DNA of 56,101 bases, taken from contig JABMNR010000138.1 in the NCBI GenBank assembly GCA_013203465.1, positions 1-56,101 of the forward strand, given 5' to 3'. Below, piece after piece: positions 1-30,776 of the stretch; the first letter of the stretch is position 1; every line of letters starts with the position of its first letter. This DNA is from Alphaproteobacteria bacterium (GTDB lineage: Bacteria; Pseudomonadota; Alphaproteobacteria; Thalassobaculales; Thalassobaculaceae). The notes under the pieces are model-generated. The model ran no database searches and had not been told where the DNA came from. It saw only the letters and a list, made by a program, of their open reading frames with translations. The translations under genes were made by a program, and so were the position numbers.

Positions 1-230
1 GCGGCGCACCTTAACTTAATACTAAATTCGATAGATTGACGTAACCCGGTGCAGGCGTATCTGGCTCAATGGTCGTGTCTGCGGGCGAGTCAACAGATGC
101 GGAAGCAAAGCTTGCCTGCATATTGACATTGATATTTCGCGGCGCGAAAAAGAAACCACCGACACCGGTCCTAGACGCGGTGGGTTGTAGAGATTCGACC
201 CGCCCCCGGTGCTGCGACTTGTCGCGTTCA
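1..230. other. Non-coding left edge of the integrated element
   Basis: No convincing gene is seen. The first 60 bases are AT-richer than the rest. A near-perfect DNA palindrome (TTTCGCG-G-CGCGAAA) lies at 135-149, which could be an operator. The only open frame here has no plausible ribosome binding site and low-complexity composition. No copy of the tRNA-Ser 3' end was recognised, so the left attachment site is probably outside the window. Confidence 0.4.
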
Positions 231-506
231 TCAGGCCGTTCCCATCGGCTCGGTTTTCAGCTCGATCATTCGGCGGTTGGCGACCTCGAAGATCCGATCG
301 ACGACCAGCCGGACCACCCGCTTGGCATCCGCCGGGGACAAGCCGTGTGCTGCGGCGACGGGGGATAGCTCTTCGATCAATTCGGCATAGGCTTTGTCGA
401 TTTCCGCCTCTACTGCAGCCTTCGACCCGTTGATATGCGGGGCAACCAAGGCAAGGCGTTCGCCTAACAAAATGCCTGTTTGGTCTATGGTTTGTGGTTC
501 GAGCAT
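231..506 (-). CDS. Small hypothetical protein downstream of the capsid protease
   Basis: A 91-residue protein of unknown function. Its ATG overlaps the stop codon of the S49 protease gene in a TAATG arrangement, so it is very likely translated by coupling and belongs to the capsid gene block. The sequence is mostly predicted helix with alternating acidic and hydrophobic residues and a central stretch (about residues 55-75) rich in Arg and Val; there are no transmembrane segments or cysteines. Position after MCP and protease would suit a small structural or head-completion protein, but this is inference from order only. I do not recognise the family. Confidence 0.6.
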   Translation of the reverse strand: MLEPQTIDQTGILLGERLALVAPHINGSKAAVEAEIDKAYAELIEELSPVAAAHGLSPADAKRVVRLVVDRIFEVANRRMIELKTEPMGTA

Positions 507-1510
507 TAGCCGCGCTCCAATTGTTGGATCAGCCGTTCGCGCTCGGCGGCGGCGGCCGATCGGGGGTTGGATTGAATCCGTAGATCAAGGGCGGCGATTT
601 CTGATTCGAATTGTTCGACCTGGGCACGGCGGCGGGCGCCGGAGCCGCTTGCACCATGGGCGGCCAGGGTTTGATCCAGCGTGCCGATCCGGTCGGCCAG
701 GCCAAGCCGCACGGCATCCACGGCCCCGGCGACCCGACCTTGACCGAAGCCACCACGAACTTGCGCGGGTGTGATCGTGCGGTCGGTTGCTTTTGATCGA
801 CCCGCCGCAACGGCGCTGACGAACATCGAGTAATACTCATCGACCCGGGCTTGGATCGCGCCACGGGCCTCGTCATCCAATGGGGCAAACGGGTTGCCCT
901 CGGTCTTGTACTTCCCGGCCGAGATGTAGGTCCGTTTCACGCCCATGGCCTCGGCGCGGGCGCTGATGTCCTCGTGCACCGTGTAGACACCGATCGATCC
1001 CGCCTCACCGCCGGGGGTGATGACGATCTCCGAGGCTTGAGAGGCGATCCAATACGCCGCCGAGGCCGCGAGGCTGTTGACCTGGGCGGTGATCTTGATC
1101 GGGCCACGGGCCATCCGGGCGATCTCGGCTGCCAGCTCGGCCACGCCATAGACAGAACCGCCCGGGGAATCGATATCGAGAATCAACCGATCGACACCGG
1201 GCATGGCGGCGACCTCGCGAAGCTGCCGGCCGACGATCTCGGTCGATGTTCCACCACCGCCGGAGACGTCGTCGAGCATGTTGGCGCGCTGGGCAATGAC
1301 ACCCCGAATTGGAATAACCGCCGTCGACCGACCCTGAGTTTGTGGGGCGCGGTCAGGATGTGAAGCGGCACCGATCCGGGCCTCGATCTCGGAAGCCGGG
1401 TACTTAATCCCGGCGGATTGGTCGCCGAGGAATGCAACGATCGCAGCCAGTTTTTCCGGCATGATCGCTAAGGGCATCGAGGCGATTTCAGCTATGAGGC
1501 GGTGATACAT
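506..1510 (-). CDS. S49 family (SppA-like) capsid maturation protease
   Basis: About 334 residues. The core from residue 63 to about 280 is an SppA/ClpP-fold serine protease: the DIDSPGG motif is at 112-118, the likely nucleophile is Ser150 in NSLAASAAYW, and the likely general base is Lys202 in GKYKTEGNP. Members of this family in phages cleave scaffold and capsid N-termini during prohead maturation. There is no signal peptide or membrane anchor, unlike housekeeping SppA. The C-terminal 40 residues are charged and predicted coiled coil, possibly a scaffold-like tail. I chose the ATG at 1510 because GAGG lies seven bases upstream; the frame stays open to 1594 without a better start. It follows the capsid gene by 115 bases and overlaps the next gene by stop/start. 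In most phages the protease gene precedes the MCP gene; here the order is reversed. Confidence 0.9.
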   Translation of the reverse strand: MYHRLIAEIASMPLAIMPEKLAAIVAFLGDQSAGIKYPASEIEARIGAASHPDRAPQTQGRSTAVIPIRGVIAQRANMLDDVSGGGGTSTEIVGRQLREVAAMPGVDRLILDIDSPGGSVYGVAELAAEIARMARGPIKITAQVNSLAASAAYWIASQASEIVITPGGEAGSIGVYTVHEDISARAEAMGVKRTYISAGKYKTEGNPFAPLDDEARGAIQARVDEYYSMFVSAVAAGRSKATDRTITPAQVRGGFGQGRVAGAVDAVRLGLADRIGTLDQTLAAHGASGSGARRRAQVEQFESEIAALDLRIQSNPRSAAAAERERLIQQLERG

Positions 1511-1625
1511 CAGCCTACCTCGGGAAGTAGAACCGGGGGGTGAAGTGCAACGACCTTCACCCCCCGGCCGGAGCCGACGCGGCGGGGTATCCATGACGAA
1601 CCCATCATGCGTCGGAACCTGGTGA

Positions 1626-2672
1626 TCATGCGCGCACCGCCAAGGTCACGAACGGGCTTTGCGTCGCGGCGGCGTTTTTCGGCGTGATCGTTGACGCCCA
1701 AGCGGGCTGACCATCGAGGCGCACGCTGAAACGAAACGCGTTTTCATCGGTGAGAAACTTGACGTGGATCGAGGACTCGGCACGCACCGATCGCTCGCCA
1801 ACGATGTATTGGCTCGGATCGCATAAGATGATGTCGCCGACCGTACCAAGGCTTGGACATTGTTCCAAAGGCACCACTGGGCGGCCCATCAAGTGCATTC
1901 CGCCGTCCTGAAACGTGACCAGCTCGGCCAAGGCGGTTCCGGTGGCCAGCTTGGCTTGCGCGAGTTGACTTTCCGCATCGTCAGTAACCAGCCAAACGGC
2001 GCGGCGGCGGGAGGCGCTCCAAAGGCGTGACCACATGGCGAGAATGTTCTCGGCAACGATCGTCGCGGCGGCTTGACCAGATTCTTTCGCGATTTCGATC
2101 GTTGCCGGGGAAACGAGTATGCCAAGCGGGCCGCGTGTACCTTCGCCGTCGATGATCTCTTGCTCGATGCGGTGAACGGATTCGAGCGTGAAGAACCGGC
2201 GCAAGATCGCTTCAAGCGCGGGGACATCTTCCCACAATTCGGATGTTGAATACGTCAGTCCGGCAAGGCGCCGAGTGTTGAACTGGACGGCGCGAAAGCC
2301 GGGTTTTGTGGCGGTGATCTCATCGCCTGCGCCAAGCCAAGACATCGACAAGCCACCGAAACGGCTGCCGTCAGCGCGATCGGTGTCGCCAATCGCCGGG
2401 ATTTTGAGTGTGGAGGATTTCATCTCGATGCGGTCGCACAAGCCGAGCAACGCGCCGGTTGAGAAAAGCGGCTCCCACAATGAGTCCGCGAACTCGACGG
2501 GAACCGCGAAACCGCCCTCGGACGGGATGGCTTGATTCGATCCGGTCGCAACCGCCTCATAGGCCGGCTGCGGGCGGTATAACTGCCGCAAGCGGTCATC
2601 CATCCCGCCGGGATGTTCCTCGGCGGCAGCGACGGCAACCAAGTAATCGCCGAATGATTCAAAGTATTTCAT
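1626..2672 (-). CDS. HK97-fold phage major capsid protein
   Basis: About 348 residues, matching HK97-type major capsid proteins from the ATGSNQAIPSEGGFAVPVEF segment (residues about 44-62) onward: this resembles the junction at which the mature N-terminus begins in the family, followed by the SLWEPLF and E-loop/A-domain regions and the closing beta-rich P-domain segment. Only about 45 residues precede that junction, so the classical long delta (scaffolding) domain of about 100 residues is reduced. The ATG at 2672 has GGAG upstream and overlaps the stop of the upstream coiled-coil gene as ATGA, implying coupled translation. It forms the icosahedral shell of a virion or satellite particle. A longer frame to 2717 exists but lacks support. 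Confidence 0.9.
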   Translation of the reverse strand: MKYFESFGDYLVAVAAAEEHPGGMDDRLRQLYRPQPAYEAVATGSNQAIPSEGGFAVPVEFADSLWEPLFSTGALLGLCDRIEMKSSTLKIPAIGDTDRADGSRFGGLSMSWLGAGDEITATKPGFRAVQFNTRRLAGLTYSTSELWEDVPALEAILRRFFTLESVHRIEQEIIDGEGTRGPLGILVSPATIEIAKESGQAAATIVAENILAMWSRLWSASRRRAVWLVTDDAESQLAQAKLATGTALAELVTFQDGGMHLMGRPVVPLEQCPSLGTVGDIILCDPSQYIVGERSVRAESSIHVKFLTDENAFRFSVRLDGQPAWASTITPKNAAATQSPFVTLAVRA

Positions 2673-3280
2673 TGATTGTTCTCCAAAACACCGGCCTGTT
2701 TGGCGCGGCGAAACCATCCGGCCATCGGCGAATGCAACTCATCCTTGGTTCCGATGACGACAAATGACAGATCGGGCAAAGGACTGACGAGTACTCCAGT
2801 ATTTTGTACTCGGTTCCTGATCTCGGCTTCTTGCAAGATCGCGCTATTCAACTCGGTCAAGGCGTCGCCGATACGCTGGGCGGCGGTGAAGTACTCTTTT
2901 TTGAGTGTCAGAACTTCGCGGCTGCGGGCGGACTGACGGAGAAGCTCGACCCGGCCGCGTTGGTCGACGAGGCGCGCGCGGAGCTTTGGCTCTTCGACAA
3001 GCGCATCCTCCATTTCATGAAAGGCGCGATGTTCGGGGAAATTGAAATACGGTTTGGCTCGCTCGTAGGCGGCGGGTGCGACACGATCAAAATCGGCGGG
3101 GCTGAGGCTCCGCATCGACGGCGCGGCGGTAAGGCCAGCGATCTTGTCGCGGAGCGCGGCGTGAGCAGCTTCCAGCTCGGCAAGCTCGACCTCGGCTTGG
3201 GCGAGATGATCTTCGGGTGTTTCGATCTCGGCGGCGGCGGCCATCGCGGCGCTCCTTTGTTGTGGGGTATTATCCGCCAT
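2669..3280 (-). CDS. Coiled-coil protein coupled to the capsid gene (possible scaffold)
   Basis: About 203 residues, not recognised as a named family. Residues 15-55 are Ala/Glu/Leu-rich and strongly predicted coiled coil; residues about 115-160 form a second helical region; the C-terminal 45 residues look globular (LSFVVIGTKDELHSPMAGW). It precedes the major capsid gene with ATGA overlap. Because the capsid protein has a shortened N-terminal region, a separate scaffold or detached delta-domain function is plausible, but it is inference from size, coiled coil and position. The start may be the GTG at 3283 or the ATG at 3280; both overlap the upstream gene's TGA. Confidence 0.65.
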   Translation of the reverse strand: MADNTPQQRSAAMAAAAEIETPEDHLAQAEVELAELEAAHAALRDKIAGLTAAPSMRSLSPADFDRVAPAAYERAKPYFNFPEHRAFHEMEDALVEEPKLRARLVDQRGRVELLRQSARSREVLTLKKEYFTAAQRIGDALTELNSAILQEAEIRNRVQNTGVLVSPLPDLSFVVIGTKDELHSPMAGWFRRAKQAGVLENNQ

Positions 3281-3732
3281 CACCGACGGCGGTGCAAAAA
3301 GCCGCTGGCCATTTTTTCGCTATTAAACCAACAACTTAACTCGGCGCGCACAATTGAGCTGGCCACGAAAGATCCAGTTGAGCGGAGTATTCGCCAGCAC
3401 GCCGCCTCGGCGATCGTCAGGCTATCGGGTGCAGTCGGTTGAAGCCGATCACGCGGCCACCGCTCCGCCTCATACCGCTGGCCGACGGTTGACACGATGT
3501 CGGCCAGCGCCCGCAAACTGGTGCATCGATGGGCGTATTGTTCGGCGATGATGGCAAGCAAGCGCGGGCGATCACGTAGCGCGGAGGCGTGAGCGGCCGA
3601 ACCCCGAGGCGGCGGTGTCAGCAAAGCTTCCAGCGCGCGGTCGAGGCGTTCGTCATGGGCGGCCCGGCGGAGGCGGTCGATCTCACGGGCGGCGGCGTCG
3701 ATGCATTCGGCGATGGTCGAGGCGCTGGTCAT
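3280..3732 (-). CDS. Hypothetical element protein between origin-like repeats and capsid genes
   Basis: A 150-residue basic protein of unknown function. The N-terminal 50 residues are helical and Arg-rich. The middle (about residues 65-120) ends in SLTIAEAACWRILRSTG, which has a helix-turn-helix flavour, and the C-terminus is Arg/His-rich. It is the first gene after the repeat block at 3769-3989 and its stop overlaps the start of the coiled-coil gene, so it opens the packaging/capsid transcription unit. A small-terminase-like or regulatory DNA-binding role is possible given location and charge, but no diagnostic motif is visible. Confidence 0.55.
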   Translation of the reverse strand: MTSASTIAECIDAAAREIDRLRRAAHDERLDRALEALLTPPPRGSAAHASALRDRPRLLAIIAEQYAHRCTSLRALADIVSTVGQRYEAERWPRDRLQPTAPDSLTIAEAACWRILRSTGSFVASSIVRAELSCWFNSEKMASGFLHRRR

Positions 3733-3768
3733 CGGGCCAACACCCCGGAAACACTGGCGATTTTGGGG

Positions 3769-3802
3769 TGTAGCAATCTGTAGCAGGGTGTAGCAATGCT
3801 AC
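3769..3802. repeat. Three helically phased TGTAGCA repeats ending in a palindrome
   Basis: TGTAGCA starts at 3769, 3779 and 3789, exactly ten bases apart, and the last copy forms a palindrome GTAGCA-A-TGCTAC at 3790-3802. Regular one-turn phasing puts all copies on the same DNA face, typical of iterons or cooperative protein binding sites. Confidence 0.8.
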
Positions 3803-3817
3803 GGTGTGATACGGCGC

Positions 3818-3846
3818 TGCGACACCTTGTAAGGTGACGTGTCGCA
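3818..3846. repeat. Nested inverted repeats in the origin-like region
   Basis: An outer inverted repeat with perfect 8-bp arms (TGCGACAC at 3818-3825, GTGTCGCA at 3839-3846) contains an overlapping inner one (CACCTT-GT-AAGGTG at 3823-3836). The two hairpins share bases and could not both form fully. Two tandem GGTGGAGC octamers follow at 3848-3863, and TGTGATAC occurs at 3805 and 3866. Confidence 0.75.
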
Positions 3847-3906
3847 GGGTGGAGCGGTGGAGCGTTGTGATACTGCCTCATCGGCAACTGGCGCATCCCG
3901 CAACCG

Positions 3907-3989
3907 GCAACCACCCCTATATGGTGGTGGTTGCGTGGTTGCGTGGGCCTTGCGCGGCAACTGGTTGCGACTGGTTGCGGGTGGTTGCG
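3907..3989. repeat. TGGTTGCG iterons, candidate replication origin
   Basis: TGGTTGCG occurs at 3928, 3936, 3962, 3972 and 3982; the last three are exactly ten bases apart. Inverted relatives occur at 3899-3905 and 3907-3913, and a hairpin with 9-bp arms is formed by 3907-3915 (GCAACCACC) and 3926-3934. The block directly abuts the stop codon of the primase-helicase gene. Satellites and plasmids commonly place iterated initiator sites beside the replication gene; origin function here is inference. Confidence 0.65.
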
Positions 3990-3991
3990 CA

Positions 3992-5902
3992 TCACTCGAC
4001 CAACCAGACATAGTCCTTGGTAACCCCAAGTAATTGCTTGCCTTTCAGTTTTGTGAGGTAGCTTTGAATATTGGCGCTGATTCGGTTGCTGGCGGCTGCG
4101 CCGTCGACGATTCCGCCTTGAATCAACCGGTTGCGAAGGTGGTTGCGAGCGACCGCAATAACGGGGCTCATTCCCCTCTCTGGAACGACTGTTTCGCCGT
4201 TGTCGGTCAGGGCGGTTTTGACCTCCCGCATGAAGGCCCGCTGTTCGTCCGACAGCTTGATAGATGCCCTTGCTGAAGATGACGCGGCGACGTCCATGAC
4301 CACACAACTTGTGATCGGCATGCCGCGATCGTTCGCGCCGAGCTCGACGGGTTCGAGCCGGTAGCCGAAACGGCCGGTGCATTCTAGGTCGCGTTGTTTG
4401 CGCACCTTGGCGGTCCCGACCTTCTCGCCTTCGGGCCGCTGCACCTCAATCTCCGTGTCAACAGCCGCTCGAAGGAGGCTGTGACCGCGCGCGCCCTTCG
4501 AAGTATCCTTGCCGCTGTGGTGGACCAGCATCACGTGAACGCCGGTTTGGGCTCGTATTTGGTCTATGTTGGAGACTAGGGCGCCCATATCGGCGCTACT
4601 GTTTTCATCGCCTCCGGCAAGCGCTCGGCTGAGGGTGTCGACCACCACCATCTTAACTAAATAGCCCGTTGCAGCCTGTAGGTCCGCGATCGCCTCGACC
4701 ACGGCGCCCGCATCTCCATCATTATCATTGTTTAGGAGGTCAATCGTCGTGGGGGCGACGGCGAACGGCGCGGTTGTAACGTCATGCCTCGACCTAAAGG
4801 CCGCTATCCGATTCCGAACACCAAACCCACCCTCCGCCGCGATGTACAGCACGGCGCCCCTTTCAATCTGACGGTCGCGCCATTTCCAGCCCAGGGCGAC
4901 GTGCAGGGCTATGTCGGTCGCGAAAAACGTTTTTCCGGTTCCAGACTCGCCATAGAGAAGGCTGAGTTGGCCATCCAGCAAAAGCCCTTCGACAAAATCA
5001 CTCGTGTTTAATGCAGGCTCGATAGAGTCCAGCAGATCAAACCGAAGCCTGCCGACCTTCGCAACCGGTTGCGGCTCATCTTCCTGCTCGTGTGGTAGAT
5101 CGGCGATATCCACCGCCCGCGCATCCGCCAAAGCGTCGTTGATGTCTTCAGCGGAACGGCCGGGAGCATCCAGCCAGTCCGAAACGTCGCCCTTTTCAGG
5201 CAGGCCGATCAGGTCGAGCCACATCATGTATTGCGGTCCGCTTCCCAGGGTGAGGGCTACGGTGCGCATGTGTGATCGTCCGGCCTTATCATTGTCCGGC
5301 ACCAGGACAACGCGCGCGCCGCGAAAGTATTGGGCGAAAGACGCGGGCCACTTACCCGCCCCGCCGGGATTACAGGTGGCTGTCACGCCTGTGGCCGCGA
5401 GCCTGTCGGCGTCCTTCTCGCCCTCCACGACTAAAACTTCTTTTCCTTCGTCGACGGCCTTTAAAAGCTGCGGAAGCCGATACGGGATCGGTTCGACCCC
5501 TTTTACCGACCAAACCCACCCGCCCCGGCCGTCTGGTCGACGTTGGCGAAAGTCTTTGGGGTCGAAGCGACAAACCTGCATCACGACTGCGCCGGATTTG
5601 TCATGATAGTCGTACGTTTCAACAATGCACGGCCGCTTAGTGGGGCTTAGAGTTTCAGCCACCTGGATGCCTAACTCATCGTTAAGCCACCGGACCGCGT
5701 CACCGTTGGCGCACCCTGTTTCGCGGGCCACGAGATCAAGCACTCCGCCGCCGACGTTAAGCTCGTGGTCGAACCACGTGGCCTTTTTTAGGTCGACCGA
5801 CAGGCTTCCATGCGAGCCGTAGCGCAATTCGGTTTTTGACGACGACGTTGGCTTTCCAAGCAGGCGCCGGGCAACGACCTCAATGTGCGGGGTTAGGTCC
5901 AT
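3992..5902 (-). CDS. Toprim primase / RecA-like helicase (satellite or phage replication protein)
   Basis: About 636 residues. Residues 1-90 form a primase-associated N-terminal region without a CHC2 zinc motif. Residues about 140-260 are a Toprim domain, with the catalytic Glu160 in VLVVEGEKDAD and Asp203/Asp205 in VPDNDKAG. Residues about 300-520 are a RepA/AAA_25 RecA-like helicase: Walker A GESGTGKT at 318-325, Walker B VVVDT at 419-423, and the LVHHSGKD motif at about 459. The C-terminus (about 560-636) looks like a winged-helix DNA-binding segment. Together these would give origin binding, unwinding and priming in one protein, as in P4 alpha or phage primase-helicases. ATG at 5902 overlaps the upstream TGA as TGATG. 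A longer frame to 5977 adds only basic low-complexity residues and is rejected. Its 3' end touches the iteron block. Confidence 0.9.
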   Translation of the reverse strand: MDLTPHIEVVARRLLGKPTSSSKTELRYGSHGSLSVDLKKATWFDHELNVGGGVLDLVARETGCANGDAVRWLNDELGIQVAETLSPTKRPCIVETYDYHDKSGAVVMQVCRFDPKDFRQRRPDGRGGWVWSVKGVEPIPYRLPQLLKAVDEGKEVLVVEGEKDADRLAATGVTATCNPGGAGKWPASFAQYFRGARVVLVPDNDKAGRSHMRTVALTLGSGPQYMMWLDLIGLPEKGDVSDWLDAPGRSAEDINDALADARAVDIADLPHEQEDEPQPVAKVGRLRFDLLDSIEPALNTSDFVEGLLLDGQLSLLYGESGTGKTFFATDIALHVALGWKWRDRQIERGAVLYIAAEGGFGVRNRIAAFRSRHDVTTAPFAVAPTTIDLLNNDNDGDAGAVVEAIADLQAATGYLVKMVVVDTLSRALAGGDENSSADMGALVSNIDQIRAQTGVHVMLVHHSGKDTSKGARGHSLLRAAVDTEIEVQRPEGEKVGTAKVRKQRDLECTGRFGYRLEPVELGANDRGMPITSCVVMDVAASSSARASIKLSDEQRAFMREVKTALTDNGETVVPERGMSPVIAVARNHLRNRLIQGGIVDGAAASNRISANIQSYLTKLKGKQLLGVTKDYVWLVE

Positions 5903-6105
5903 CAACGCCCCCTGCGCCGGGCGACGTGCTTGCGATGCAGAAACGCCTCGGCGTCGCGTTGGACGCGGGCGCGCCAATCGTCGACGGCGTTGACATTTAG
6001 GGCCGGTGTGGTACTATCTTCGGAGTTTCGACCGCCAGCTCGAACATCCCTTGAAGCCCCGCGATCCTTACGGACGGCGGGGTTTCGCTTTTCGGGCGGG
6101 CGCAT
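5902..6105 (-). CDS. Small basic protein coupled to the primase
   Basis: A 67-residue, Arg-rich protein with no recognised domain. It starts three bases after the AlpA stop and ends in a TGATG overlap with the primase start, so it fits the gene chain well. The C-terminal third (DDWRARVQRDAEAFLHRKHV) is predicted helix. Weak GAAG precedes the ATG. It may be a nucleic-acid-binding accessory of replication or just a coupling peptide. The coordinates and coupling are the main evidence. Confidence 0.5.
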   Translation of the reverse strand: MRPPEKRNPAVRKDRGASRDVRAGGRNSEDSTTPALNVNAVDDWRARVQRDAEAFLHRKHVARRRGR

Positions 6106-6108
6106 TCT

Positions 6109-6294
6109 TCACGCGGCCCCCTTCAACGACTCGATCCACTCGCGCGGATGCGTCGAGATGATCCGGCGGTTCCCGAACTTCGCGGTTTCAAGATCGCCGG
6201 AGGTGATCAGTTCGTAGGTTGAGGACCGGGAAATGCCGGCGGCGGCAGACCAATCGTTCACCGACCAGCCATATCGTTCCGTGTTTTTGTCCAT
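6109..6294 (-). CDS. AlpA/MerR-like helix-turn-helix excisionase or regulator
   Basis: 61 residues. WSVNDWSAAAGISRSSTYEL (about residues 10-29) is a winged helix-turn-helix of the AlpA/HTH_17 type, followed by the RRIISTHPREWIESL wing and helix characteristic of these short proteins. In P4-like satellites and PICIs the AlpA homologue activates or repressed-balances integrase/excision genes and can act as recombination directionality factor. It lies between the integrase side and the replication genes, 102 bases downstream of the preceding gene, so the upstream gap may hold its promoter. Confidence 0.85.
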   Translation of the reverse strand: MDKNTERYGWSVNDWSAAAGISRSSTYELITSGDLETAKFGNRRIISTHPREWIESLKGAA

Positions 6295-6396
6295 ACGTAT
6301 CCACTCCTAATCCGTTGTGGATACCGATCCTTCACATTTAAACCGCCGCCGTCTTGCCGGGAAATTTGGGATTTTTCCGGCAAAGTATTGAGGGTC

Positions 6397-6927
6397 CTAT
6401 AAATCGTCTTGACTTGGCGGCCCATAGCGGCGGCGGCCCTCATAATACATTTCGTTCGCGATCGTCTTGCTCAACCCAAATTTAGAGCCAAGGTCTTCGA
6501 AAAAATCGTCGTCAATAGTTGACTGTTTGTCGGCAAGTATCCTTTTCCCCTCTAAGTAAACTGCGATTGGCAGCACTCGTGAGCGCCGGGCTGTATTGAG
6601 ATGCTTTCCTTTTGGGTAAGGTCGACCAAAGGCGTCATCCCACGATCCAGCGCGGGCATTTAGCACTTTGTCATATGAGTTGATAAACGCCTGAGCAACC
6701 CACTCAGGCATAACTAAGGCGTGGTTGGCACAGACCCGAACAGCGGCCAACACCACAAAACCGGAGCCATCAAGCTGATACTCTTCTTCTAGATCCCGCA
6801 GTCGGTGTAGTGCGTTCCATCTATAGATCGGGAGCCCTGGCCCCTCCGGCTGCCCTTCAGCCTTCGCCCGCTCATGCTCCCTGAGAACACGATCGATTGA
6901 CCAATTAATCTCAACCACGAGCAACAC
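6397..6927 (-). CDS. Hypothetical element protein downstream of integrase
   Basis: About 176 residues, not recognised. It is noticeably less GC-rich than the chromosome. The protein is soluble, with an N-terminal helix, a central hydrophobic stretch (FVVLAAVRVCANHALVMPEW, about 58-77) that is too polar for a membrane segment, and a C-terminal part (residues about 145-176) with LGSKFGLSKTIANEMYYEGR, which resembles a helix-turn-helix. GTG at 6927 is preceded by a G-rich stretch but TTG at 6924 is also possible. It overlaps the integrase stop by about 17 bases, implying cotranscription. A regulatory role is a guess from the HTH-like end. Confidence 0.6.
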   Translation of the reverse strand: MLLVVEINWSIDRVLREHERAKAEGQPEGPGLPIYRWNALHRLRDLEEEYQLDGSGFVVLAAVRVCANHALVMPEWVAQAFINSYDKVLNARAGSWDDAFGRPYPKGKHLNTARRSRVLPIAVYLEGKRILADKQSTIDDDFFEDLGSKFGLSKTIANEMYYEGRRRYGPPSQDDL

Positions 6928-8158
6928 CCCCGTTGATTGAAATCACATCCGCCCCGGTCTTGCTTCCGCCTATGCAGAATCCCGCCCACGCATCCATCAA
7001 CGCGCGGCGTTTATCGAACAGATCACCGCGTTGGTAGGCGGCAACAACCTTGTCACTCAGGGTGTGAGCCAATGCGGCTTCAGCGACGGCATCGGGGAAT
7101 CGCGTCGTCTCGGCAACCCACGTCCTGAAGGTGCTCCGAAACCCGTGCGCTGTTGCCGGAACCTTCATCCGACGCAAGACCATGGTCATGGCCATGTTGC
7201 TTAGCGGGCGCCCCTTGGACTGGCCTTCAAATACAAGCTCACAACCCGTTCGCCGCACCTCCCGCAACCGCCGTAGCAAGTCGCCAGCCGGATCGCTGAT
7301 CGGCACCCGATGCTCGACCTTCACTTTCATCCGGTGGGCGGGAACGGTCCACATTTTCGTTTCAAGATCGATCTCCGTCCAGGCCGCGCCGAGCACTTCG
7401 CCCGTTCGTCCAGCCGTCAAGATCGCCAATTCCAACGCACGAGCGCCCAAGCCCTGCTGTGCCTGTAGTGATTGCCAAAACGCTGGCATCTCCGCGTAGG
7501 GCAGGGCGGGATGATGCTGCACCTGCATCACATCCGATTTTGCCGGGAGAATGTGGTCGAGGTGCCCACGCCATCGCGCGGGATTCTCACCATCCCGATA
7601 TCCGCGCACCTTGGCGTAGTTCAAAACCGATTCAATCCGGCCGCGAAGCCGGCTTGCGGTTTCCGTCTTGGTATTCCACAGCGGCTCCAACACCTGGACC
7701 ACCAGGTTCGTGTCTACACTGCCGACCGGCAGCGCACCGATCGTCGGAAAGGCGTAGGTTTCCAGTGTCGCGGTCCATTGGCCGGCGTGCTTTTCACTTT
7801 TCCACCCTGAACGCATCGCTTCAATGTAGGCACTTGCGCATTGCTGGAATGTCATCGTGCGCGCGATCTCGACGGCTTGCGCCGCAGCAACGGAACGCCT
7901 CGCTTCGATGGGGTCGATCCCGGCCACCACCCGCTTTTTAGCGTCGAGCGCCTTTTGACGAGCCTCCGCGAGTGTCACGATGCCAGCGGAGCCGAGACCC
8001 ATGTCACGACGCTTGCCGTCCATAGTGAAGCGGAAAACCCACGTTTTCCCTCCGCTCCGAGTGATTTGGAGATACAGCCCGTTGCCGTCCGCGAACATGC
8101 CCGGGCGCTTCATTGTCTGCACTTGTCTCGCGCTCAATCCTGCGGCTCGCTTTGGCAT
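6911..8158 (-). CDS. int: Tyrosine site-specific integrase
   Basis: About 415 residues. Residues 1-90 are the DUF4102 arm-binding domain (DGNGLYLQITRSGGKTW...MGLGS), 95-190 the SAM-like core-binding domain, and 205-400 the catalytic domain. The catalytic set is visible: Arg251 in TAGRTGEVLG, His338-x-x-Arg341 in HGFRSTFR, His365 in LAHTLSD, and nucleophile Tyr375 in AAYQRGD. These P4-type integrases insert elements into the 3' end of tRNA genes, matching the tRNA-Ser 240 bases away. ATG at 8158 has GAGGTG six bases upstream; an alternative start at 8182 is less good. The gene is transcribed away from the tRNA, leading the element's transcription. Confidence 0.95.
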   Translation of the reverse strand: MPKRAAGLSARQVQTMKRPGMFADGNGLYLQITRSGGKTWVFRFTMDGKRRDMGLGSAGIVTLAEARQKALDAKKRVVAGIDPIEARRSVAAAQAVEIARTMTFQQCASAYIEAMRSGWKSEKHAGQWTATLETYAFPTIGALPVGSVDTNLVVQVLEPLWNTKTETASRLRGRIESVLNYAKVRGYRDGENPARWRGHLDHILPAKSDVMQVQHHPALPYAEMPAFWQSLQAQQGLGARALELAILTAGRTGEVLGAAWTEIDLETKMWTVPAHRMKVKVEHRVPISDPAGDLLRRLREVRRTGCELVFEGQSKGRPLSNMAMTMVLRRMKVPATAHGFRSTFRTWVAETTRFPDAVAEAALAHTLSDKVVAAYQRGDLFDKRRALMDAWAGFCIGGSKTGADVISINGGVARG

Positions 8159-8172
8159 CGGCACCTCGTCAA

Positions 8173-8225
8173 ACCTACCCATTCCGCATGATGGGTAGGT
8201 CGATGGGTGGGATGATGGGTGGCGA
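8173..8225. repeat. Inverted repeat and 12-bp tandem repeats upstream of the integrase
   Basis: Perfect 10-bp arms ACCTACCCAT (8173-8182) and ATGGGTAGGT (8191-8200) flank an 8-base loop. The right arm overlaps three tandem 12-bp units beginning GATGGGT at 8190, 8202 and 8214. A related CTACCCAT is at 8263-8270. Such arrays beside int are candidate arm-type integrase sites or an AlpA/repressor operator. Confidence 0.7.
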
Positions 8226-8311
8226 TCGAGCCAGCAGCTTGCGGATCGGTCGGAATTGGCCTCTACCCATCAACCTATCCATCATTAAACATTGGATTGC
8301 GGCGGTCAAGT

Positions 8312-8388
8312 GTGGACGTGTATGGATGTCGATTGTTGATAAAGCCCCGATATCCGGGGTTTTTCTGGACTAATGTGGACGTACATGG
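8312..8388. repeat. Direct repeat pair near the tRNA junction
   Basis: GTGGACGTGTATGG at 8312-8325 and GTGGACGTACATGG at 8375-8388 match at 12 of 14 positions and bracket a hairpin. They lie within 90 bases of the tRNA-Ser 3' end and could be arm-type recombinase sites. Confidence 0.6.
8341..8366. terminator. Intrinsic terminator hairpin next to tRNA-Ser
   Basis: CCCCG and CGGGG arms, flanked by AAA/TTT that extend the stem, with a five-base loop and a T-run on the + strand. On the - strand the tail is shorter (CTTTATC). It could end the tRNA-Ser transcript or block read-through into tRNA from the element. Confidence 0.6.
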
Positions 8389-8397
8389 AAGGGGAAT

Positions 8398-8489
8398 TGG
8401 CGGAGGGGATGGGATTCGAACCCACGATACCAGTTTCCTAGTATAACGGTTTAGCAAACCGCCGCCTTCAGCCACTCGGCCACCCCTCC
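8398..8489 (-). tRNA. tRNA-Ser (anticodon GCT)
   Basis: 92 bases including encoded CCA. Acceptor GGAGGGG pairs with CCCCTCC, the anticodon loop TTGCTAA carries GCT, a long type II variable arm is present, and the T-arm has GGTTCGAATCC. It reads AGC/AGT codons. Its 3' end faces the integrated element and is the probable attachment site. Confidence 0.97.
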
Positions 8490-10743: not shown

Positions 10744-11487
10744 TCACGCAAGCACCACCAAATAGGTTCCATGCATGGCGTAGTACGCTGAAATCCCGGT
10801 GATCAGACGGCCACCCCAACAGCGATACTGCGTGTCGCTCATGCGCTCGAGAACCGTCTTGGACAACATCGTGCCGATCATCGAGGCAACAATCGCCACA
10901 CCGGCGAGTATGGGATCAACCGCCGCCGCCTGATCGATGATCGCACCGAAATACAACAGTTTCACCCCGTGGCCGAAAAGCTGGCACATCCCCTTGGTCG
11001 CCACGATCTGCCGGCGGTCCAAACCACCGGTGAGAAAGAACTGATCCAGAATCGGTCCGGCGACACCGGTTAGCAGCATGAGCGTCATGCAGAGCGCTCC
11101 ATACCCCACACCGTCGCGAAAGCGTTCCGGGTTGGCGCGCCGGTCCGACGGGATCAAGCGGTTGACGAACGGCAATGTTCCCAGGAGCAGCAGGGCCAGC
11201 CCCTTGCTCGGGACGTAGAGCCAGACCGACCAGACAAGCAACGCGCCCCCGCATCCGATCATATAAGCACCGACGATTGGCCAGCGGACGAGCCGCCACC
11301 AGAACATCGCCCGCCAGCCGTTGGACGCCATTTGGGTAATCGCATGCAACGCCATCGCCAGGGGCAGTGGCATGATTGCGAGCAGCACCCCAACCAGCAC
11401 GAGGCCACCCGCCATGCCGAAGATTCCCGACAGAAACGAGGTGGCGATCATGGTGGCACTAATAAAGATTATGATAACTGGCGTCAT
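10744..11487 (-). CDS. TauE/SafE (TSUP) family membrane permease
   Basis: 247 residues with about seven to eight hydrophobic segments and the family's Gly-rich first helix pair (SFLSGIFGMAGGLVLVGVLL). TSUP proteins export or import sulfite, sulfoacetate or other small organosulfur/organic anions across the inner membrane. It is divergent from the LysR regulator with 84 bases between starts, which suggests LysR-controlled expression. Which substrate is moved cannot be read from sequence. Confidence 0.88.
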   Translation of the reverse strand: MTPVIIIFISATMIATSFLSGIFGMAGGLVLVGVLLAIMPLPLAMALHAITQMASNGWRAMFWWRLVRWPIVGAYMIGCGGALLVWSVWLYVPSKGLALLLLGTLPFVNRLIPSDRRANPERFRDGVGYGALCMTLMLLTGVAGPILDQFFLTGGLDRRQIVATKGMCQLFGHGVKLLYFGAIIDQAAAVDPILAGVAIVASMIGTMLSKTVLERMSDTQYRCWGGRLITGISAYYAMHGTYLVVLA

Positions 11488-15929: not shown

Positions 15930-16716
15930 AGCGGTTCTCCCGGAAAAAATCGACCATGGCGTCAACCAAGGCTTGGGGCTGCTCGATGCAGGGCAGGTGG
16001 CCGCACTGGTCGAGTTCGACGAACCGCGCGCCGGGGATCGAGGCGGCCAGGGCGCGCACGACCTCGGGCGGGGTGGCGCCGTCCTGAGCCCCGCCGACGC
16101 ACAGGGTCGGAACCGAAATGCGGGCGGCGTCGGCGCGCAAATCGGCGTCGCGGATCGCCGCGCAACAGGCCAGATAGCCGTCGAGCGGGGTGCGGATCAG
16201 CAGGTTGCGCCAAGCGGCGGTCTCCGCCGGCTTGCCGGAGCGGAAGGCCGGAGCGAACCAGCGCTCCAGAATTCCATCGGCGGCCGCGTCGAGGCCGTGC
16301 TTTCCGATGCCGTCGATCCTTTCCTGCCACATCTCCGGTGTGCCGATCTTCGAGGCGGTGTCGCACAGCACCAAGCCGCGCACACGGTCAGGGTGATCCT
16401 TGATGAGTTGCTGAGCGATCAGGCCGCCGATCGACAGCCCGCACAGCAAGGTCTCGCGGATACCGAGATGATCGAGCAGCCCGGCCAGATCGGCGGCCAG
16501 CCTCGTGATCGTGACCTCGGCGGCACCCCGGTCGGTCAGGCCATGGCCACGTGTGTCGTAGCGGACGCAGCGGAACCGGTCCGATAACCGCGCGATCACG
16601 GCGTCCCAGGTTCGGAGATCGGTACCAAGGGAATTGGAGAACACCAGAGCGGGCGCGTTCGGTGGTCCTTCGACGGCGACGTGTATGGTGATGTCGTCGA
16701 CGGTGGCGGCATGCAT
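15919..16716 (-). CDS. pcaD: 3-oxoadipate enol-lactonase
   Basis: 265 residues, alpha/beta hydrolase fold. Nucleophile Ser in LLCGLSIGGLIAQ, acid Asp in GGAQDGATPP, and His in DQCGHLPCIEQP; the N-terminal SNSLGTDLRTWD oxyanion motif is typical of PcaD. It hydrolyses 3-oxoadipate enol-lactone to 3-oxoadipate. GGAG precedes the ATG at 16716; a GTG at 16737 is less likely. It starts the pcaD-pcaC-dehydrogenase operon and is divergent from the ABC transporter, sharing a 163-base promoter region. Confidence 0.95.
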   Translation of the reverse strand: MHAATVDDITIHVAVEGPPNAPALVFSNSLGTDLRTWDAVIARLSDRFRCVRYDTRGHGLTDRGAAEVTITRLAADLAGLLDHLGIRETLLCGLSIGGLIAQQLIKDHPDRVRGLVLCDTASKIGTPEMWQERIDGIGKHGLDAAADGILERWFAPAFRSGKPAETAAWRNLLIRTPLDGYLACCAAIRDADLRADAARISVPTLCVGGAQDGATPPEVVRALAASIPGARFVELDQCGHLPCIEQPQALVDAMVDFFRENRFVR

Positions 16717-16879
16717 GGGAGGCTCCGGGAGCGTCACGAGGGGAGAACATTAAGCCGGTCAGTCGTCCCGACATGCAAGCCGTGGCCGGGCGCGCGGAAA
16801 TCTGCATGATAGCGGCCACGGCCAGCATGACTGGGACAGCATGCCGACAACAGAATTGGGACTCGGGAGGATTTGTATC
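16717..16879. promoter_or_regulatory. Divergent promoter region between pcaDC and the ABC importer
   Basis: 163 bases with two outward transcription units. No operator could be assigned with confidence. The shared region is the reason to infer that importer and catabolic genes respond to the same regulator. Confidence 0.45.
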
Positions 16880-17920
16880 ATGATCGACAGACTGTTTTCA
16901 CGGCGTCGTGTGGCGCATCTTTTGGGTGCGGCACTGTTCGCGGCGGCGGGTGCCACGGCCACGGCGCAGGCCGCGGAGAAGGTGACCATCGGCGCGTTGC
17001 GCTTCACCTCATCGGCGCCGTTGTTCGTCGCCTTCGAGCGCGGCTATTTCGCCGATGAGGGATTGGACGCCGAGTTCAGCTTCTTTCAGGCGGCACAGCC
17101 GGTGGCGGTCGCCATCGCCTCGGGCGACGTGGATTTCGGTGTGACGGCCTTGACCGGCGGCTTCTTCAATCTGGCGTCCAAGGGGGCGTTGAAAGTGATC
17201 GGCGGTCATTTCCACGAGGAGAAGGGGTATGACGGCTCGGCTATTCTCGTCTCCAACAAGGCGTACGAGGCCGGTTTCACCTCGGTCGACAAATTTCCGG
17301 GCCATTCGCTGGGCATGACCCAGGTCGGTTCGTCGTTCCACTATATGGCCGGCCGAATTGCCGAAGCCAAGGGCTTTCCACTCTCCGACATTACCCTGCT
17401 GCCACTACAGAAGGTCGGCGCGATCATCGCCGCGCTGAAGTCCGGGCAGGTCGATAGCATGATCATCGTGCCGCATATCGCTCGTCCGCTGGACCGCGGC
17501 GGCGCGGCCAAGATCATCGGTTGGGTGTACGACTACGCGCCGTACCAAGTGACCACGCTGTTCACCTCGACCAACAACACCGAGAGCAAGCCGGAGTTGG
17601 TGAAACGGTTCGTGAAGGCCTATCAGCGCGGTATCGCCGATTATCGGGCGGTCATGCTCAACCAGGCCAAGGACCCGGCGGCGACCGAGGAGATGACCAA
17701 GCTGATCCATAAATACGTCTATGCCGACCGGCCATACGAGAAGGCGGCGCCATCGATCAAGGCGGGGGCGATCTACGTCAACGAGAACGCCCGGCTCGAT
17801 GTTGGCGATGTCAAGGCGCAGCTCGAATGGTTCCAGGCCCAGGGCTTTGTACCCGGCGGGTTCGACTATCGGGCGATCGTCGACACCTCGTTTGTCGAGG
17901 CTTACAACTTGCCGAAATGA
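16880..17920 (+). CDS. ABC transporter substrate-binding protein (SsuA/TauA/THI5-like)
   Basis: 346 residues. A signal peptide (RRRVAHLLGAALFAAAGATA, cleavage near AQA-AE at about residue 33) sends it to the periplasm. The mature part has the NMT1/SsuA-like two-lobe fold (ITIGALRF-type first strand, VTALTGGFFNLASKG and LPLQKVGAIIAALKSGQVD). Family members bind sulfonates, nitrate, aromatic acids or thiamine precursors. Lying back-to-back with pcaDC, an aromatic or quinate-like acid is the most economical guess. ATG at 16880 is preceded by GGGAGG. First gene of a three-gene importer. Confidence 0.9.
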   Translation: MIDRLFSRRRVAHLLGAALFAAAGATATAQAAEKVTIGALRFTSSAPLFVAFERGYFADEGLDAEFSFFQAAQPVAVAIASGDVDFGVTALTGGFFNLASKGALKVIGGHFHEEKGYDGSAILVSNKAYEAGFTSVDKFPGHSLGMTQVGSSFHYMAGRIAEAKGFPLSDITLLPLQKVGAIIAALKSGQVDSMIIVPHIARPLDRGGAAKIIGWVYDYAPYQVTTLFTSTNNTESKPELVKRFVKAYQRGIADYRAVMLNQAKDPAATEEMTKLIHKYVYADRPYEKAAPSIKAGAIYVNENARLDVGDVKAQLEWFQAQGFVPGGFDYRAIVDTSFVEAYNLPK

Positions 17921-17966
17921 TGAGCCGGGCCGGTCTTTCGAGACTGGCCCAATCCAAGGGTTTTTG

Positions 17967-18734
17967 ATGGAACTTCGGCTCGACGGCATCACGCATCGTT
18001 ACGGTGCTGTGACGGTATTGGACGGTATCGACCTCGCGGTTGGCAGCGGCCAAGTCGTCTGTCTGGTCGGCCCGTCCGGCTGCGGCAAGTCGACCCTGTT
18101 GCGGATTATCGGTGGGTTGGAGATGCCGACCGGTGGTGCCGTTCATCTGATGGGCGAGCCGCCGGAAGGGTGTTTCAACCCGCTGACCTACGTATTTCAG
18201 GACTTCGCGCTGCTGCCCTGGCGCACGGCGGCGGACAACGTCTCATTGGTGCTGGAGGATCATCCGCTGTCGGCTGAGGCCCGATCGGCGGTCGTCGCCG
18301 ACGTGCTGGCACGAACCAAACTCACCGATTTCGCCAATGCCTGGCCAAGGCAGTTGTCCGGCGGCATGAAACAGCGGGTGGCGCTTGCCCGCGCGCTCGC
18401 GGTGCGGCCGGCGGTGATGCTGATGGATGAGCCGCTCTCGGCCCTCGACAGCCAGACCCGAGAGCTTCTGATGGAGGATCTGATCGGGTTGTGGGAGCGG
18501 GAACGTTTCACCGCGGTCTACGTCACTCACAATCTTCTTGAGGCCGTGCGGCTTGGCCATCGGGTTGTCGTGCTGTCCCGGCGCCCCGGCCGGATTAGCG
18601 AGCAGATGACGATCGATACGCCGCTGGCCGAGCGCGACATGGCGGATCCAATTCTCCTCGCCAAGGCCGAACGGCTGTGGGTCGCCATGCGAGACGAGGC
18701 GGCGGCCGCCGATCGGGAACTGCTGCATGTCTGA
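17967..18734 (+). CDS. ABC transporter ATP-binding protein (SsuB/TauB-like)
   Basis: 255 residues. Walker A GPSGCGKST, Q-loop in YVFQDFALLPWR, signature LSGGMKQRVALARAL, Walker B VMLMDEPLSALD and H-loop YVTHNLLEA are all present, so it should hydrolyse ATP to power import. It is of the nitrate/sulfonate/taurine subfamily. ATG at 17967; a longer open frame upstream overlaps the binding-protein gene and is rejected. It overlaps the permease start by eight bases. Confidence 0.95.
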   Translation: MELRLDGITHRYGAVTVLDGIDLAVGSGQVVCLVGPSGCGKSTLLRIIGGLEMPTGGAVHLMGEPPEGCFNPLTYVFQDFALLPWRTAADNVSLVLEDHPLSAEARSAVVADVLARTKLTDFANAWPRQLSGGMKQRVALARALAVRPAVMLMDEPLSALDSQTRELLMEDLIGLWERERFTAVYVTHNLLEAVRLGHRVVVLSRRPGRISEQMTIDTPLAERDMADPILLAKAERLWVAMRDEAAAADRELLHV

Positions 18735-19518
18735 GGTGCGCCCGGTTCCGTTTCGCGGTGGCGGCTTCCGGCCGCGATCGATCGGCGTGGTCGGCCCGAT
18801 CGTGTTCGTGGTGCTGATCAGCGCCTGGGAGGCGGCGTCGCGTCTTGGGCTGATCACCCCGCTGGTGCTGCCGGCTCCGTCCGAGGCGGCGGCGGCGTTC
18901 TGGGAATTGCTGGAGACCGGACGGCTGTGGCTGCATCTGTCGGCATCGTTGCAGCGGCTCGTGGTCGGCTGGACGTTGGGAACGCTGGTGGGGGTGTCGG
19001 CCGGGTTCGCGATCGGGTTGTTCTCGCTGGCCAGGGCGGGATTGATGCCGGTGGTCTCGGCGCTGTTCCCGATCCCCAAGATCGCGCTGTTGCCGCTGTT
19101 CATCATCTGGTTCGGCATCGGTGAGGGTTCGAAGGTCGCCACCCTGTTCTTCGGCACGTTCTTCCCGACGGTGATCGCCACCTATGCCGGGGTCGACGGG
19201 GTTGACCGCACATTGATCCGCATGGGTCAGTCGTTTGGGCTGACATGGTGGTCGATCGTGCGCAAGATCGTCCTGCCGGGGGCGTTGCCGGCGATCCTCT
19301 CGGGGTTTCGCATCTCGGCATCGATCGCGATCATCCTGCTGGTCGCCGCCGAGATGATCGGCGCCGAGTTCGGCATTGGCGCCTATGTCCTGTTGGCCGG
19401 GAACCTGATGGCCACGGACCAGTTGATCGCCGGGGTGGCGATGCTGTCGGTGATGGGACTGACCGTGGGGTTCCTGATCAGTCGGGCCGAGCGGTTGCTG
19501 CTACGCTGGCGCGGGTAG
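18727..19518 (+). CDS. ABC transporter permease (SsuC/TauC-like)
   Basis: 263 residues with six hydrophobic segments. The EAA loop is visible as IRMGQSFGLTWWSIVRKIVLPGALPAIL (residues about 160-186). It forms the inner-membrane channel of the importer with the ATPase encoded upstream. Its 3' end overlaps the convergent racemase gene by 18 bases. Confidence 0.93.
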   Translation: MSEVRPVPFRGGGFRPRSIGVVGPIVFVVLISAWEAASRLGLITPLVLPAPSEAAAAFWELLETGRLWLHLSASLQRLVVGWTLGTLVGVSAGFAIGLFSLARAGLMPVVSALFPIPKIALLPLFIIWFGIGEGSKVATLFFGTFFPTVIATYAGVDGVDRTLIRMGQSFGLTWWSIVRKIVLPGALPAILSGFRISASIAIILLVAAEMIGAEFGIGAYVLLAGNLMATDQLIAGVAMLSVMGLTVGFLISRAERLLLRWRG

Positions 19519-20235
19519 CGGCCGGGGATAACGCCGAGGCCGCATGCCGTCGTGCAGCCAATGCACCAACGTGTTGATATCGAACACCGGCAGGCCGAAG
19601 CGGTCGGCGATGTCGGTCGAGAACGGGGCGAGGTTGGTGCACTCGCTGACAATCGCGCCGATGCTCGGGGTTTGCGCGATCAACCGCTCGGCGGCGGCCA
19701 GCGCGTCCGCCCGCAGCACCTCGAACGGCACGGTGTCGTCGCCTTCGAGGATCGACCGGACGAAGCGCGAGGAGGCGCCGATGCCCTCGACCGGGGTATC
19801 GGCTGGCACCCCCGCGTCTTCGAGATACGCACCGATCAGCGCGTCACCGTCGAAGGTCAGGACGCCGACGCGGCGGCCCTCAGGAATCAACCGTTGGGCC
19901 AGCGGCACCTGCAGCAGCGCCGAGGTGGCGACCGGTATGCCAAGCGCCTCGACAAGCGCGTCCTGGAACACCGACAGAAACCCGCAGGTGGTGGTGATGC
20001 CGGCCACCCCTTCGGCGGCCAACTCGTGCCCCGCCGCGATGAACGGCTCCAGCAGCGCCTTGTCGTGCAGGCCGGTGACCCGCACGGGCCTGGCGTCCTC
20101 AATCACCCGATAGCGCACCGGAAACGGAAAGGTCTCGGGGTTGCCGATGTCGCCGGGCCAGCGGCGGAAGCGGGTGTTCAGCATCAGGATGCCGATGGTC
20201 ACCTCATTCCCGTCCTCGCCTGGATGATTCGTCAT
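19501..20235 (-). CDS. Aspartate/glutamate racemase family protein
   Basis: 244 residues. Two catalytic-type cysteines are in conserved settings: Cys in GITTTCGFLSVFQ and Cys in IVSECTNLAPFS, with a Rossmann-like two-domain arrangement, as in Asp/Glu/hydantoin racemases and arylmalonate decarboxylase-like proteins. The exact substrate is unknown. The ATG at 20235 lies one base after the flavodoxin-like gene's stop, so both are cotranscribed. The gene end overlaps the ABC permease on the other strand. Confidence 0.85.
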   Translation of the reverse strand: MTNHPGEDGNEVTIGILMLNTRFRRWPGDIGNPETFPFPVRYRVIEDARPVRVTGLHDKALLEPFIAAGHELAAEGVAGITTTCGFLSVFQDALVEALGIPVATSALLQVPLAQRLIPEGRRVGVLTFDGDALIGAYLEDAGVPADTPVEGIGASSRFVRSILEGDDTVPFEVLRADALAAAERLIAQTPSIGAIVSECTNLAPFSTDIADRFGLPVFDINTLVHWLHDGMRPRRYPRPLPAPA

Positions 20236-20236
20236 C

Positions 20237-20704
20237 TCAGAACACCCCCGCTTCCAGACCGGCCGCGACCAGCATACCCAGCTCCTCGCATTGGCCGACG
20301 AACGCCTCGTCGAAGCCGCCACGGCAGATCAACGGTTCACGCACCGCCTTCCAGCGCAGTCCAGTGATTATCGTCTCGACCCCGCGCCGGGTGCCGGTGC
20401 CGTCCATCCCAGCGCGGATGTAGAGCGCGTAGGGCAAGCCCTGGGTGTCTTCCAGGCAGGGGTAGTAGCTGCGATCGAAGAAATCCTTTAGGGCACCGCT
20501 CATGTAACCGAGGTTCTCAGTGGTGCCGAGAATCACCGCGTCGGCGGCTTTCACGTCGTCCGGACCGGCCTCGAACGGGGACTTGGAAACCAGCTCGACG
20601 CCGCTGATGTCCTGGTGCCGCGCGCCGGCCACCACGGCATCACGCAGGCGCGCCGTGTTGGGCGAGGGGGCATGGGCGACGATCAGAAGGCGCTTCACGG
20701 CCAC
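20237..20704 (-). CDS. Flavodoxin-like NAD(P)H-dependent oxidoreductase
   Basis: 155 residues. KRLLIVAHAPSPNTARLRDA is the FMN phosphate-binding loop of flavodoxin-fold proteins; ILGTTENLGYMSGALKDFFDR is the second flavin-binding loop (WrbA/flavodoxin-like). It likely reduces quinones or other acceptors with FMN. GTG at 20704 has GAGGA at good spacing; another GTG lies at 20698. Upstream partner of the racemase gene in a two-gene operon, divergent from the rRNA methyltransferase. Confidence 0.85.
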   Translation of the reverse strand: MAVKRLLIVAHAPSPNTARLRDAVVAGARHQDISGVELVSKSPFEAGPDDVKAADAVILGTTENLGYMSGALKDFFDRSYYPCLEDTQGLPYALYIRAGMDGTGTRRGVETIITGLRWKAVREPLICRGGFDEAFVGQCEELGMLVAAGLEAGVF

Positions 20705-20832
20705 CGGTATTCCTCTTCGCTGTTGACGGATCGGTTCAAAGCCGCGTCCGCTTGTGGCACAACGCGGCTTCCCGGCCGGGCATCTTCGACGCCGCGCGCC
20801 GGACGAGCAACCCATCGCGGGGGGAGGACGGC

Positions 20833-23430: not shown

Positions 23431-23532
23431 GGCGCGCCGTTCTGTGGTTTGTTGCCGCGATCCTAGCCCCGCCAAGGGCCGACGCAATACCATCGCCGCA
23501 TACCATCCTGGTCGTTTCATTCACGAGCCGTC

Positions 23533-25220: not shown

Positions 25221-25233
25221 CTTACTTCGCCGC

Positions 25234-25249
25234 GTCGGCTCGCGCCGAC
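25234..25249. terminator. Hairpin after rsmI
   Basis: GTCGGC and GCCGAC arms with a TCGC loop, 14 bases after the rsmI stop. It lacks a T-run, so factor-independent termination is uncertain. Confidence 0.35.
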
Positions 25250-25304
25250 AGGCGTGCCAACGGCTGGCTTCCGCCAGAACTCGTGCCCACCTAGACTGAA
25301 AGCG

Positions 25305-27609: not shown

Positions 27610-27790
27610 TTGAGCATCCAATGTCCGTGCCAGAACGAGTATAATCATATGCTAATTTTATTCGTTATGGAAGCGCACCGATGTTTTTGTTCGTTTTGCG
27701 TGAATCAGCGGAATTGGCCGCCTCGGCTGACGTTGATCGTGACCTCGGTCTGGGTCACGCTTCGTACCGTCCACTGGAGAGGAAACTGGT

Positions 27791-29245: not shown

Positions 29246-29257
29246 GGAGGCCGGCCA

Positions 29258-30436: not shown

Positions 30437-30449
30437 GCGCGCTCGTTGG

Positions 30450-30764: not shown

Positions 30765-30776
30765 GGTCTGGCTCGA

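Follow-up and report, generated by a model that had tools for sequence, protein, structure and literature searches.

A probable cos-type phage satellite that encodes a capsid protein and a head protease of its own, integrated at tRNA-Ser(GCT) in an alphaproteobacterium

The best-studied parallel to the element described here is SaPIbov5, a Staphylococcus aureus pathogenicity island (SaPI) whose capsid protein Ccm replaces the helper phage's capsid protein at the pentamers and gives rise to small shells (PMC8569155); besides making capsids smaller, Ccm blocks phage 12 (PMC5052747). EcCICFT073, a phage-inducible chromosomal island (PICI) of Gram-negative bacteria, has two functional cos sites (PMC6092414), and capsid-forming PICIs (cf-PICIs) additionally encode portal, head-tail connectors, HNH protein and both terminase subunits (PMC10690885). 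Here we describe an integrated mobile element at tRNA-Ser(GCT) that occupies positions 1–8398 of ‘the window’, i.e., the entire 56,101-bp contig analyzed (JABMNR010000138.1; here C133) from an alphaproteobacterial genome of 4.48 Mb in 238 contigs. That it represents a satellite carrying its own capsid genes is well supported. More specifically, we assign a probability of about 0.58 to the interpretation that it is an integrated cos-type PICI-like satellite which encodes its own capsid protein and protease and takes terminase, portal and tail from a helper phage. This interpretation rests on the gene content, a compact head operon, a cos site in phage context, a distal attachment (att) site on a second contig (C149), the location of the genome's only HK97-type portal and large terminase subunit (TerL) genes in another element, a capsid protein lacking its delta domain, and a comparable island in a Desulfovibrionales genome, as well as on the precedents provided by SaPIbov5 Ccm (PMC8569155, PMC5052747), PmCI172 and EcCICFT073 (PMC6092414), and TG93 (PMC13230959).

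The first-pass annotation described a leftward gene chain starting at the tRNA, and open reading frames (ORFs) and family scans retrieve all of its named parts on the minus strand, to which all protein genes of the element belong. Strong family matches were obtained for integrase, primase-helicase, capsid protein and protease, and none of significance for ORF176, ORF150, ORF204 and ORF91 (Pfam, PHROGs and NCBIfam scans). As had been stated, tail, lysis, portal and terminase genes are absent between the tRNA and the contig end (1–8398; ORF list, Pfam and PHROGs scans), and the left end is indeed cut off: the contig stops at position 1, and no other contig overlaps window 1–231 to continue it. 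What had escaped the first-pass annotation are the cos site (133–206), the integrase arm sites (8190–8271) and the fact that the capsid protein has no delta domain.

The head genes are arranged in the order ORF150 (3280–3732, of unknown function), ORF204 (2669–3283), major capsid protein (MCP; 1626–2672, 348 residues), S49 head maturation protease (506–1594) and ORF91 (231–506, unknown, adjoining cos). Three of the four junctions (ORF150/ORF204, ORF204/MCP and S49/ORF91) are ATGA, GTGA or TAATG overlaps, e.g., the MCP start codon, an ATG at 2672, overlaps the ORF204 stop, and the fourth (MCP/S49) is a gap of only 31 bp; hence, we consider the five genes to form one compact head operon. Family matches are strong for the capsid protein (PF05065, E = 2e-35; TIGR01554, E = 3e-41) and the protease (phrog_53, E = 3e-79; also PF01343), and the AlphaFold model of the MCP is HK97-like, with Foldseek matches that include a gene transfer agent, phages and the cf-PICI EcCI2.

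The MCP is exceptional in that 21 of 22 aligned relatives carry about 70–170 additional N-terminal residues, that is, the delta (scaffold) domain, which the window protein lacks; consistently, TIGR01554 matches it only from model position 91. The sole exception among the 22 is the second, short MCP copy of a viral contig (L006, 6302–9481), a phage contig with two adjacent MCP genes, one with and one without a delta domain. One may ask, as a variant of the satellite interpretation, if the delta-less protein enters and blocks helper shells instead of building a shell of its own. The dual activity of Ccm (PMC5052747) and the occurrence of a delta-less MCP beside a full-length one in L006 speak for such interference, whereas the adjoining protease suggests shell maturation and not poisoning alone, and we regard a purely interfering role as rather unlikely.

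The product of ORF204 is predicted to fold into a long bundle of helices, one of which spans 80 residues (AlphaFold confidence, pLDDT, above 90 in the helices). From position and shape, it is possibly a separate scaffold protein. A search of 385 genomes of the same class, viral contigs and plasmids returned one weak match only (26% identity, G413), and no solved structure provides a convincing match. When ORF204 was compared by sequence with the delta domain, as if detached from the MCP, the score was no better than for shuffled sequence, and this assignment was rejected. For ORF91, one may speculate from its position that it encodes an adaptor akin to the small terminase subunit (TerS) or Rpp.

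Directly downstream of the head operon, positions 133–206 (minus strand) contain a 17-mer, GGGGCGGGTCGAATCTC, which is found in 32 IMG/VR contigs. In 21 of these, TerL is encoded on the same strand no more than 4.5 kb downstream, and an HNH-type LCxxCH motif lies upstream in 18; several of the remaining contigs end before neighboring genes could show. Since GGGGCGGGTCGAATCTC thus holds the cos position in phages, with HNH upstream and TerL downstream, we identify 133–206 as an HK97-type cos site. HK97-like phages have their TerS binding site 15–29 bp from the cut, and cleavage is stimulated by HNH (PMC11331095). The site recurs once in the genome, at C149 11096–11169 (89% identity), where seven of the eight mismatches fall into a 15-bp spacer and the flanking blocks of 17 bp and about 39 bp are identical, as would be expected of a protein-binding site; judged by sequence, the two sites are the same cos. 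An alternative assignment of 133–206 as RNA or terminator was rejected: the 74 nucleotides fold no better than shuffles, and there is no Rfam match. Where the phage contigs with this 17-mer carry a TerS-like gene after cos, the gene typically starts about 50–150 bp past the 17-mer. The element has no HNH gene before cos, and the 132 bp left between cos and the contig end (1–132, minus strand) contain no TerS start. A cos site located downstream of the head genes, without HNH before it or TerS within 132 bp, points to the use of a helper's terminase.

This bears directly on the proposal in the first-pass annotation that the element is a cf-PICI, of which the part concerning a satellite with its own capsid genes stands, and the part that would demand portal, connectors, HNH and terminase finds no counterpart in the visible sequence. 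Those genes might lie left of position 1, in which case the element would make complete heads and borrow tails alone. In support, the contig is cut at position 1, and the integrases of the window and of L130, a viral contig with the gene content of a full cf-PICI, are 49% identical; L130, like a cf-PICI on contig C44 of the present genome, carries HNH, cos region and terminase genes at the integrase-distal end. The C44 element (16168–31125; L071, L072) is a complete 15-kb cf-PICI bounded by 20-bp att repeats at tRNA-Arg(CCG), with integrase, primase/DUF927, portal, an S78 protease-MCP fusion, HNH, a TerS-like ORF and TerL. It holds the only HK97-type portal (PF04860) and TerL (PF03354) genes of the whole genome, and it shows that a complete cf-PICI would have been seen by our searches; no TerL, portal or MCP pieces turned up beyond C44 in about 1.36 Mb of other contigs. 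Moreover, in L130 (order MCP-protease-portal-HNH-TerS-TerL) and C44 the portal and HNH genes precede TerS and TerL, whereas MCP, S49 and ORF91 of the window lead directly to cos without either, followed by 132 bp free of a TerS start; and the distal end on C149 has its cos 217 bp from att, with no gene between. We therefore consider a true cf-PICI unlikely.

The tRNA-Ser(GCT) gene that served as integration target is located at 8398–8489 (minus strand; ARAGORN, Rfam RF00005), and the integrase-side att core, CATCCCCTCCGCCAAT, at 8396–8411 (minus strand), including the 14-bp CATCCCCTCCGCCA. Next to the integrase gene lie four arm-type sites GATGGGTRG (8190+, 8202+, 8214+ and 8263−), a motif found nowhere else in the window. 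Among the matches to CATCCCCTCCGCCA, the only second exact copy is at C149 10864–10877 (minus strand), a copy of the tRNA-Ser(GCT) 3′ end, and a pair of GATGGGTRG sites spaced 12 bp apart (10927–10947) adjoins it; no second pair of this kind was found in about 1.36 Mb of other contigs of the same genome. Core and arm-site pair together imply that C149 holds the distal att site for this integrase specificity. The earlier suggestion to extend the element leftward to a second att site could thus be followed as far as that site; the join is missing from the assembly. Beyond the C149 att site follows a large serine recombinase. A similar recombinase ends likewise at a tRNA-Ser 3′ end in a relative (G169), and in another (G026) a flank similar to that of C149 comes after tRNA-Ser(GCT); the locus is thus known on its far side. 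As a side observation, C149 (L035) holds a VirD4/TraG-bearing element which ends in a large serine recombinase at a tRNA-Ser 3′ end.

The stretch from window position 1 to C149 13750 is lacking from the assembly, and this missing left junction is the main uncertainty of the present study. Window 1–8397, the gap and C149 10880–13750 might constitute one larger element, which would then have two cos sites and, near the distal att site, a RelE/HTH (helix-turn-helix) toxin-antitoxin-like module; this reading concerns extent and is compatible with either a borrowed or an own portal and terminase. The matching distal att site, arm sites and cos on C149 would fit, and P4 has accessory genes between cos and att. 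The two functional cos sites of EcCICFT073 (PMC6092414) provide a further precedent. However, a genome with two intact cos sites would be split, two satellites may equally well lie in tandem at one tRNA, and C149 ends (13750) in a dispersed repeat whose 21-mers are common to 12 other contigs, which makes continuity uncertain. One element with two cos sites and two tandem satellites both fit the data from the window and C149; we regard the former as possible while leaning against it.

A decayed prophage, reduced to its early region and two head genes, would be in line with the fact that relatives of the MCP and protease are mostly ordinary siphophages. The MCP relatives, mostly with the order TerS-TerL-portal-protease-MCP, are only about 32–44% identical, so that the first-pass annotation's concern about close relatives being ordinary prophages holds for the kind of relative, yet not for the closeness. 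Among 36 genomes of the same family and 385 of the same class, the sole MCP relative lies in a siphophage-like region (G280). The complete tail and lysis module that had been named as evidence against a satellite does not occur in 1–8398, nor do remnants of one; all genes are open and overlapping, the MCP-protease order is reversed relative to phages, the delta domain is missing, and origin repeats, cos, att core and arm sites are intact. Finally, one exception among the MCP relatives, an 11.6-kb island in a Desulfovibrionales metagenome-assembled genome (L034, 1277–12894), bounded by a 17-bp tRNA-Leu repeat, presents the same set within its own att sites: integrase, primase, a cos-like site (at 8563), protease, MCP and a 155-residue protein, without TerL or portal. 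Decay of a prophage is thus quite improbable. Beside tRNA-Pro, the same Desulfovibrionales genome has a second such island with a cos-like site, protease and MCP (L032, 205–3548), which likewise lacks TerL and portal. In the MCP tree, L034 and L032 fall inside a Desulfovibrio phage group and the window protein stands apart, which suggests separate capture of capsid genes; the tree does not group the window protein with C44 or L130 either. A further exception among the MCP relatives, the 12-kb viral contig L019, has neither TerL nor portal and combines an AlpA-like protein, primase and TerS-like ORF with protease, MCP and a tape-measure-like protein, a gene mix odd for a satellite.

Several observations weigh against a satellite with borrowed terminase and portal. 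The left end is cut, so TerS, TerL and other genes could follow cos, and in the C44 cf-PICI TerS and TerL come after the HNH gene and cos region. Furthermore, no helper carrying this cos was found (a prophage on contig C41, considered as a candidate, was discarded because no similar cos occurs in the first 20 kb tested), and nothing closely related to the element in its entirety was detected.

The remaining genes complete the inventory. The tyrosine integrase (6911–8182; Arm-DNA-bind_3, PF13356; Phage_int_M, PF22022; Phage_integrase, PF00589) is followed by ORF176 (6397–6927, unknown), an AlpA/excisionase-like HTH regulator (6109–6294), ORF67 (5902–6105), a small basic protein and uncertain gene without a match, and the Toprim/RecA-type primase-helicase (3992–5977; AAA_25, E = 5e-43; phrog_239 primase/helicase, E = 6e-45; phrog_2850). 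The assignment as AlpA had been made without qualification; it is weak, the matches to HTH_17 (21.3 bits, cutoff 27) and TIGR01764 (16.5, cutoff 28.8) remaining below threshold. The repeats previously called origin-like are borne out: within 3733–3991, CGCAACCA occurs five times and TGCTACA three times, with 0.004 and 0.01 expected from shuffles, and we regard these iterons as a candidate replication origin. PADLOC matches to the primase and HTH protein were weak and hence not accepted as defence genes. Primase and integrase relatives on contigs C65 (46%) and C117 (50%) were dismissed as satellites, their contexts not being satellite-like; on C65 (L193, 511–7381), the neighbors of the primase include a terminase-like gene and a serine recombinase.

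If the element is a satellite that encodes capsid protein and protease itself, one can envisage the following scenario. A helper phage would induce the element, which its own integrase would excise and its own primase-helicase would replicate from the iterons. The satellite would then produce capsid protein and S49 protease, with ORF204 possibly as separate scaffold, and the helper's HK97/HNH-type terminase would cut at the element's cos and package the DNA into a shell built partly or wholly of satellite capsid protein on the helper portal. S49 would mature the shell, and the helper would supply the tail. As with SaPIbov5 Ccm, the capsid protein of the satellite probably steers assembly toward a smaller shell. 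Classical cos PICIs remodel the heads of their helpers and cf-PICIs build entire heads; the element would then be intermediate between the two, and it suggests that capsid genes were taken up stepwise and independently by satellites. It is tempting to go further and propose a recurrent ‘shell-only’ design (cos, capsid protein and protease, with terminase, portal and tail borrowed), convergent in at least two phyla, in which ORF204 replaces the lost built-in scaffold in the window; we put this forward tentatively, with the odds against it. A delta-less MCP with its own protease would test HK97-type shell assembly and size when scaffold and portal come from elsewhere, and the cos site offers a direct handle toward the helper phage.

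Among described systems, P4-like satellites share with the window integrase, AlpA/Vis-type regulator, primase, cos and distal accessory genes. P4, however, has the size-determination scaffold Sid and lacks the capsid protein and protease present in the window, where general Pfam, PHROGs and NCBIfam scans, with no search aimed at the P4 set, gave no match to Sid, Delta or Psu. SaPIbov5-type cos SaPIs are likewise integrated, with an HNH/HK97-type phage cos, their own HK97-fold capsid protein and neither terminase nor portal; in the window, the capsid homologue is known from its sequence and predicted HK97 fold. They differ in phylum and regulator, and while Ccm has an 87-residue delta domain and SaPIbov5 no protease gene (PMC8569155), the window has no delta domain and encodes S49. 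The satellite-plasmid (PISP) TG93 from Vibrio also carries a capsid protein and head maturation protease without portal or TerL, but is a plasmid without integrase, has a capsid protein of E type and encodes TerS (PMC13230959). Of the features by which Gram-negative cos-type PICIs are recognized, the element exhibits (i) an integrase at a specific att site with flanking repeats, the join being unassembled, (ii) a helper-type cos, and (iii) an AlpA-type activator with a primase-replication initiator, the primase match being strong and the AlpA match weak and sub-cutoff. EcCICFT073 and PmCI172 resemble it in integrase, AlpA-type regulator, primase, cos (EcCICFT073) and capsid homologue (PMC6092414), and differ, as compared by gene content only, in that the window has its own S49 protease, the helical ORF204 and an iteron block. 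With cf-PICIs it shares integrase, primase, HK97 capsid protein and head protease, and with L130 a related integrase and the same MCP-then-protease order; in C44, by contrast, the MCP is fused to an S78 protease. No portal-sized ORF or match, connectors, TerS, TerL or HNH is visible in 1–8398, the contig ending 132 bp past cos. As searches of the visible part yielded neither portal nor connectors, and as it ends before any terminase genes that might follow cos, we do not claim membership in the cf-PICIs as defined (PMC10690885), and view the element rather as a new variant among cos-type, capsid-carrying PICI-like satellites than as a demonstrated cf-PICI.

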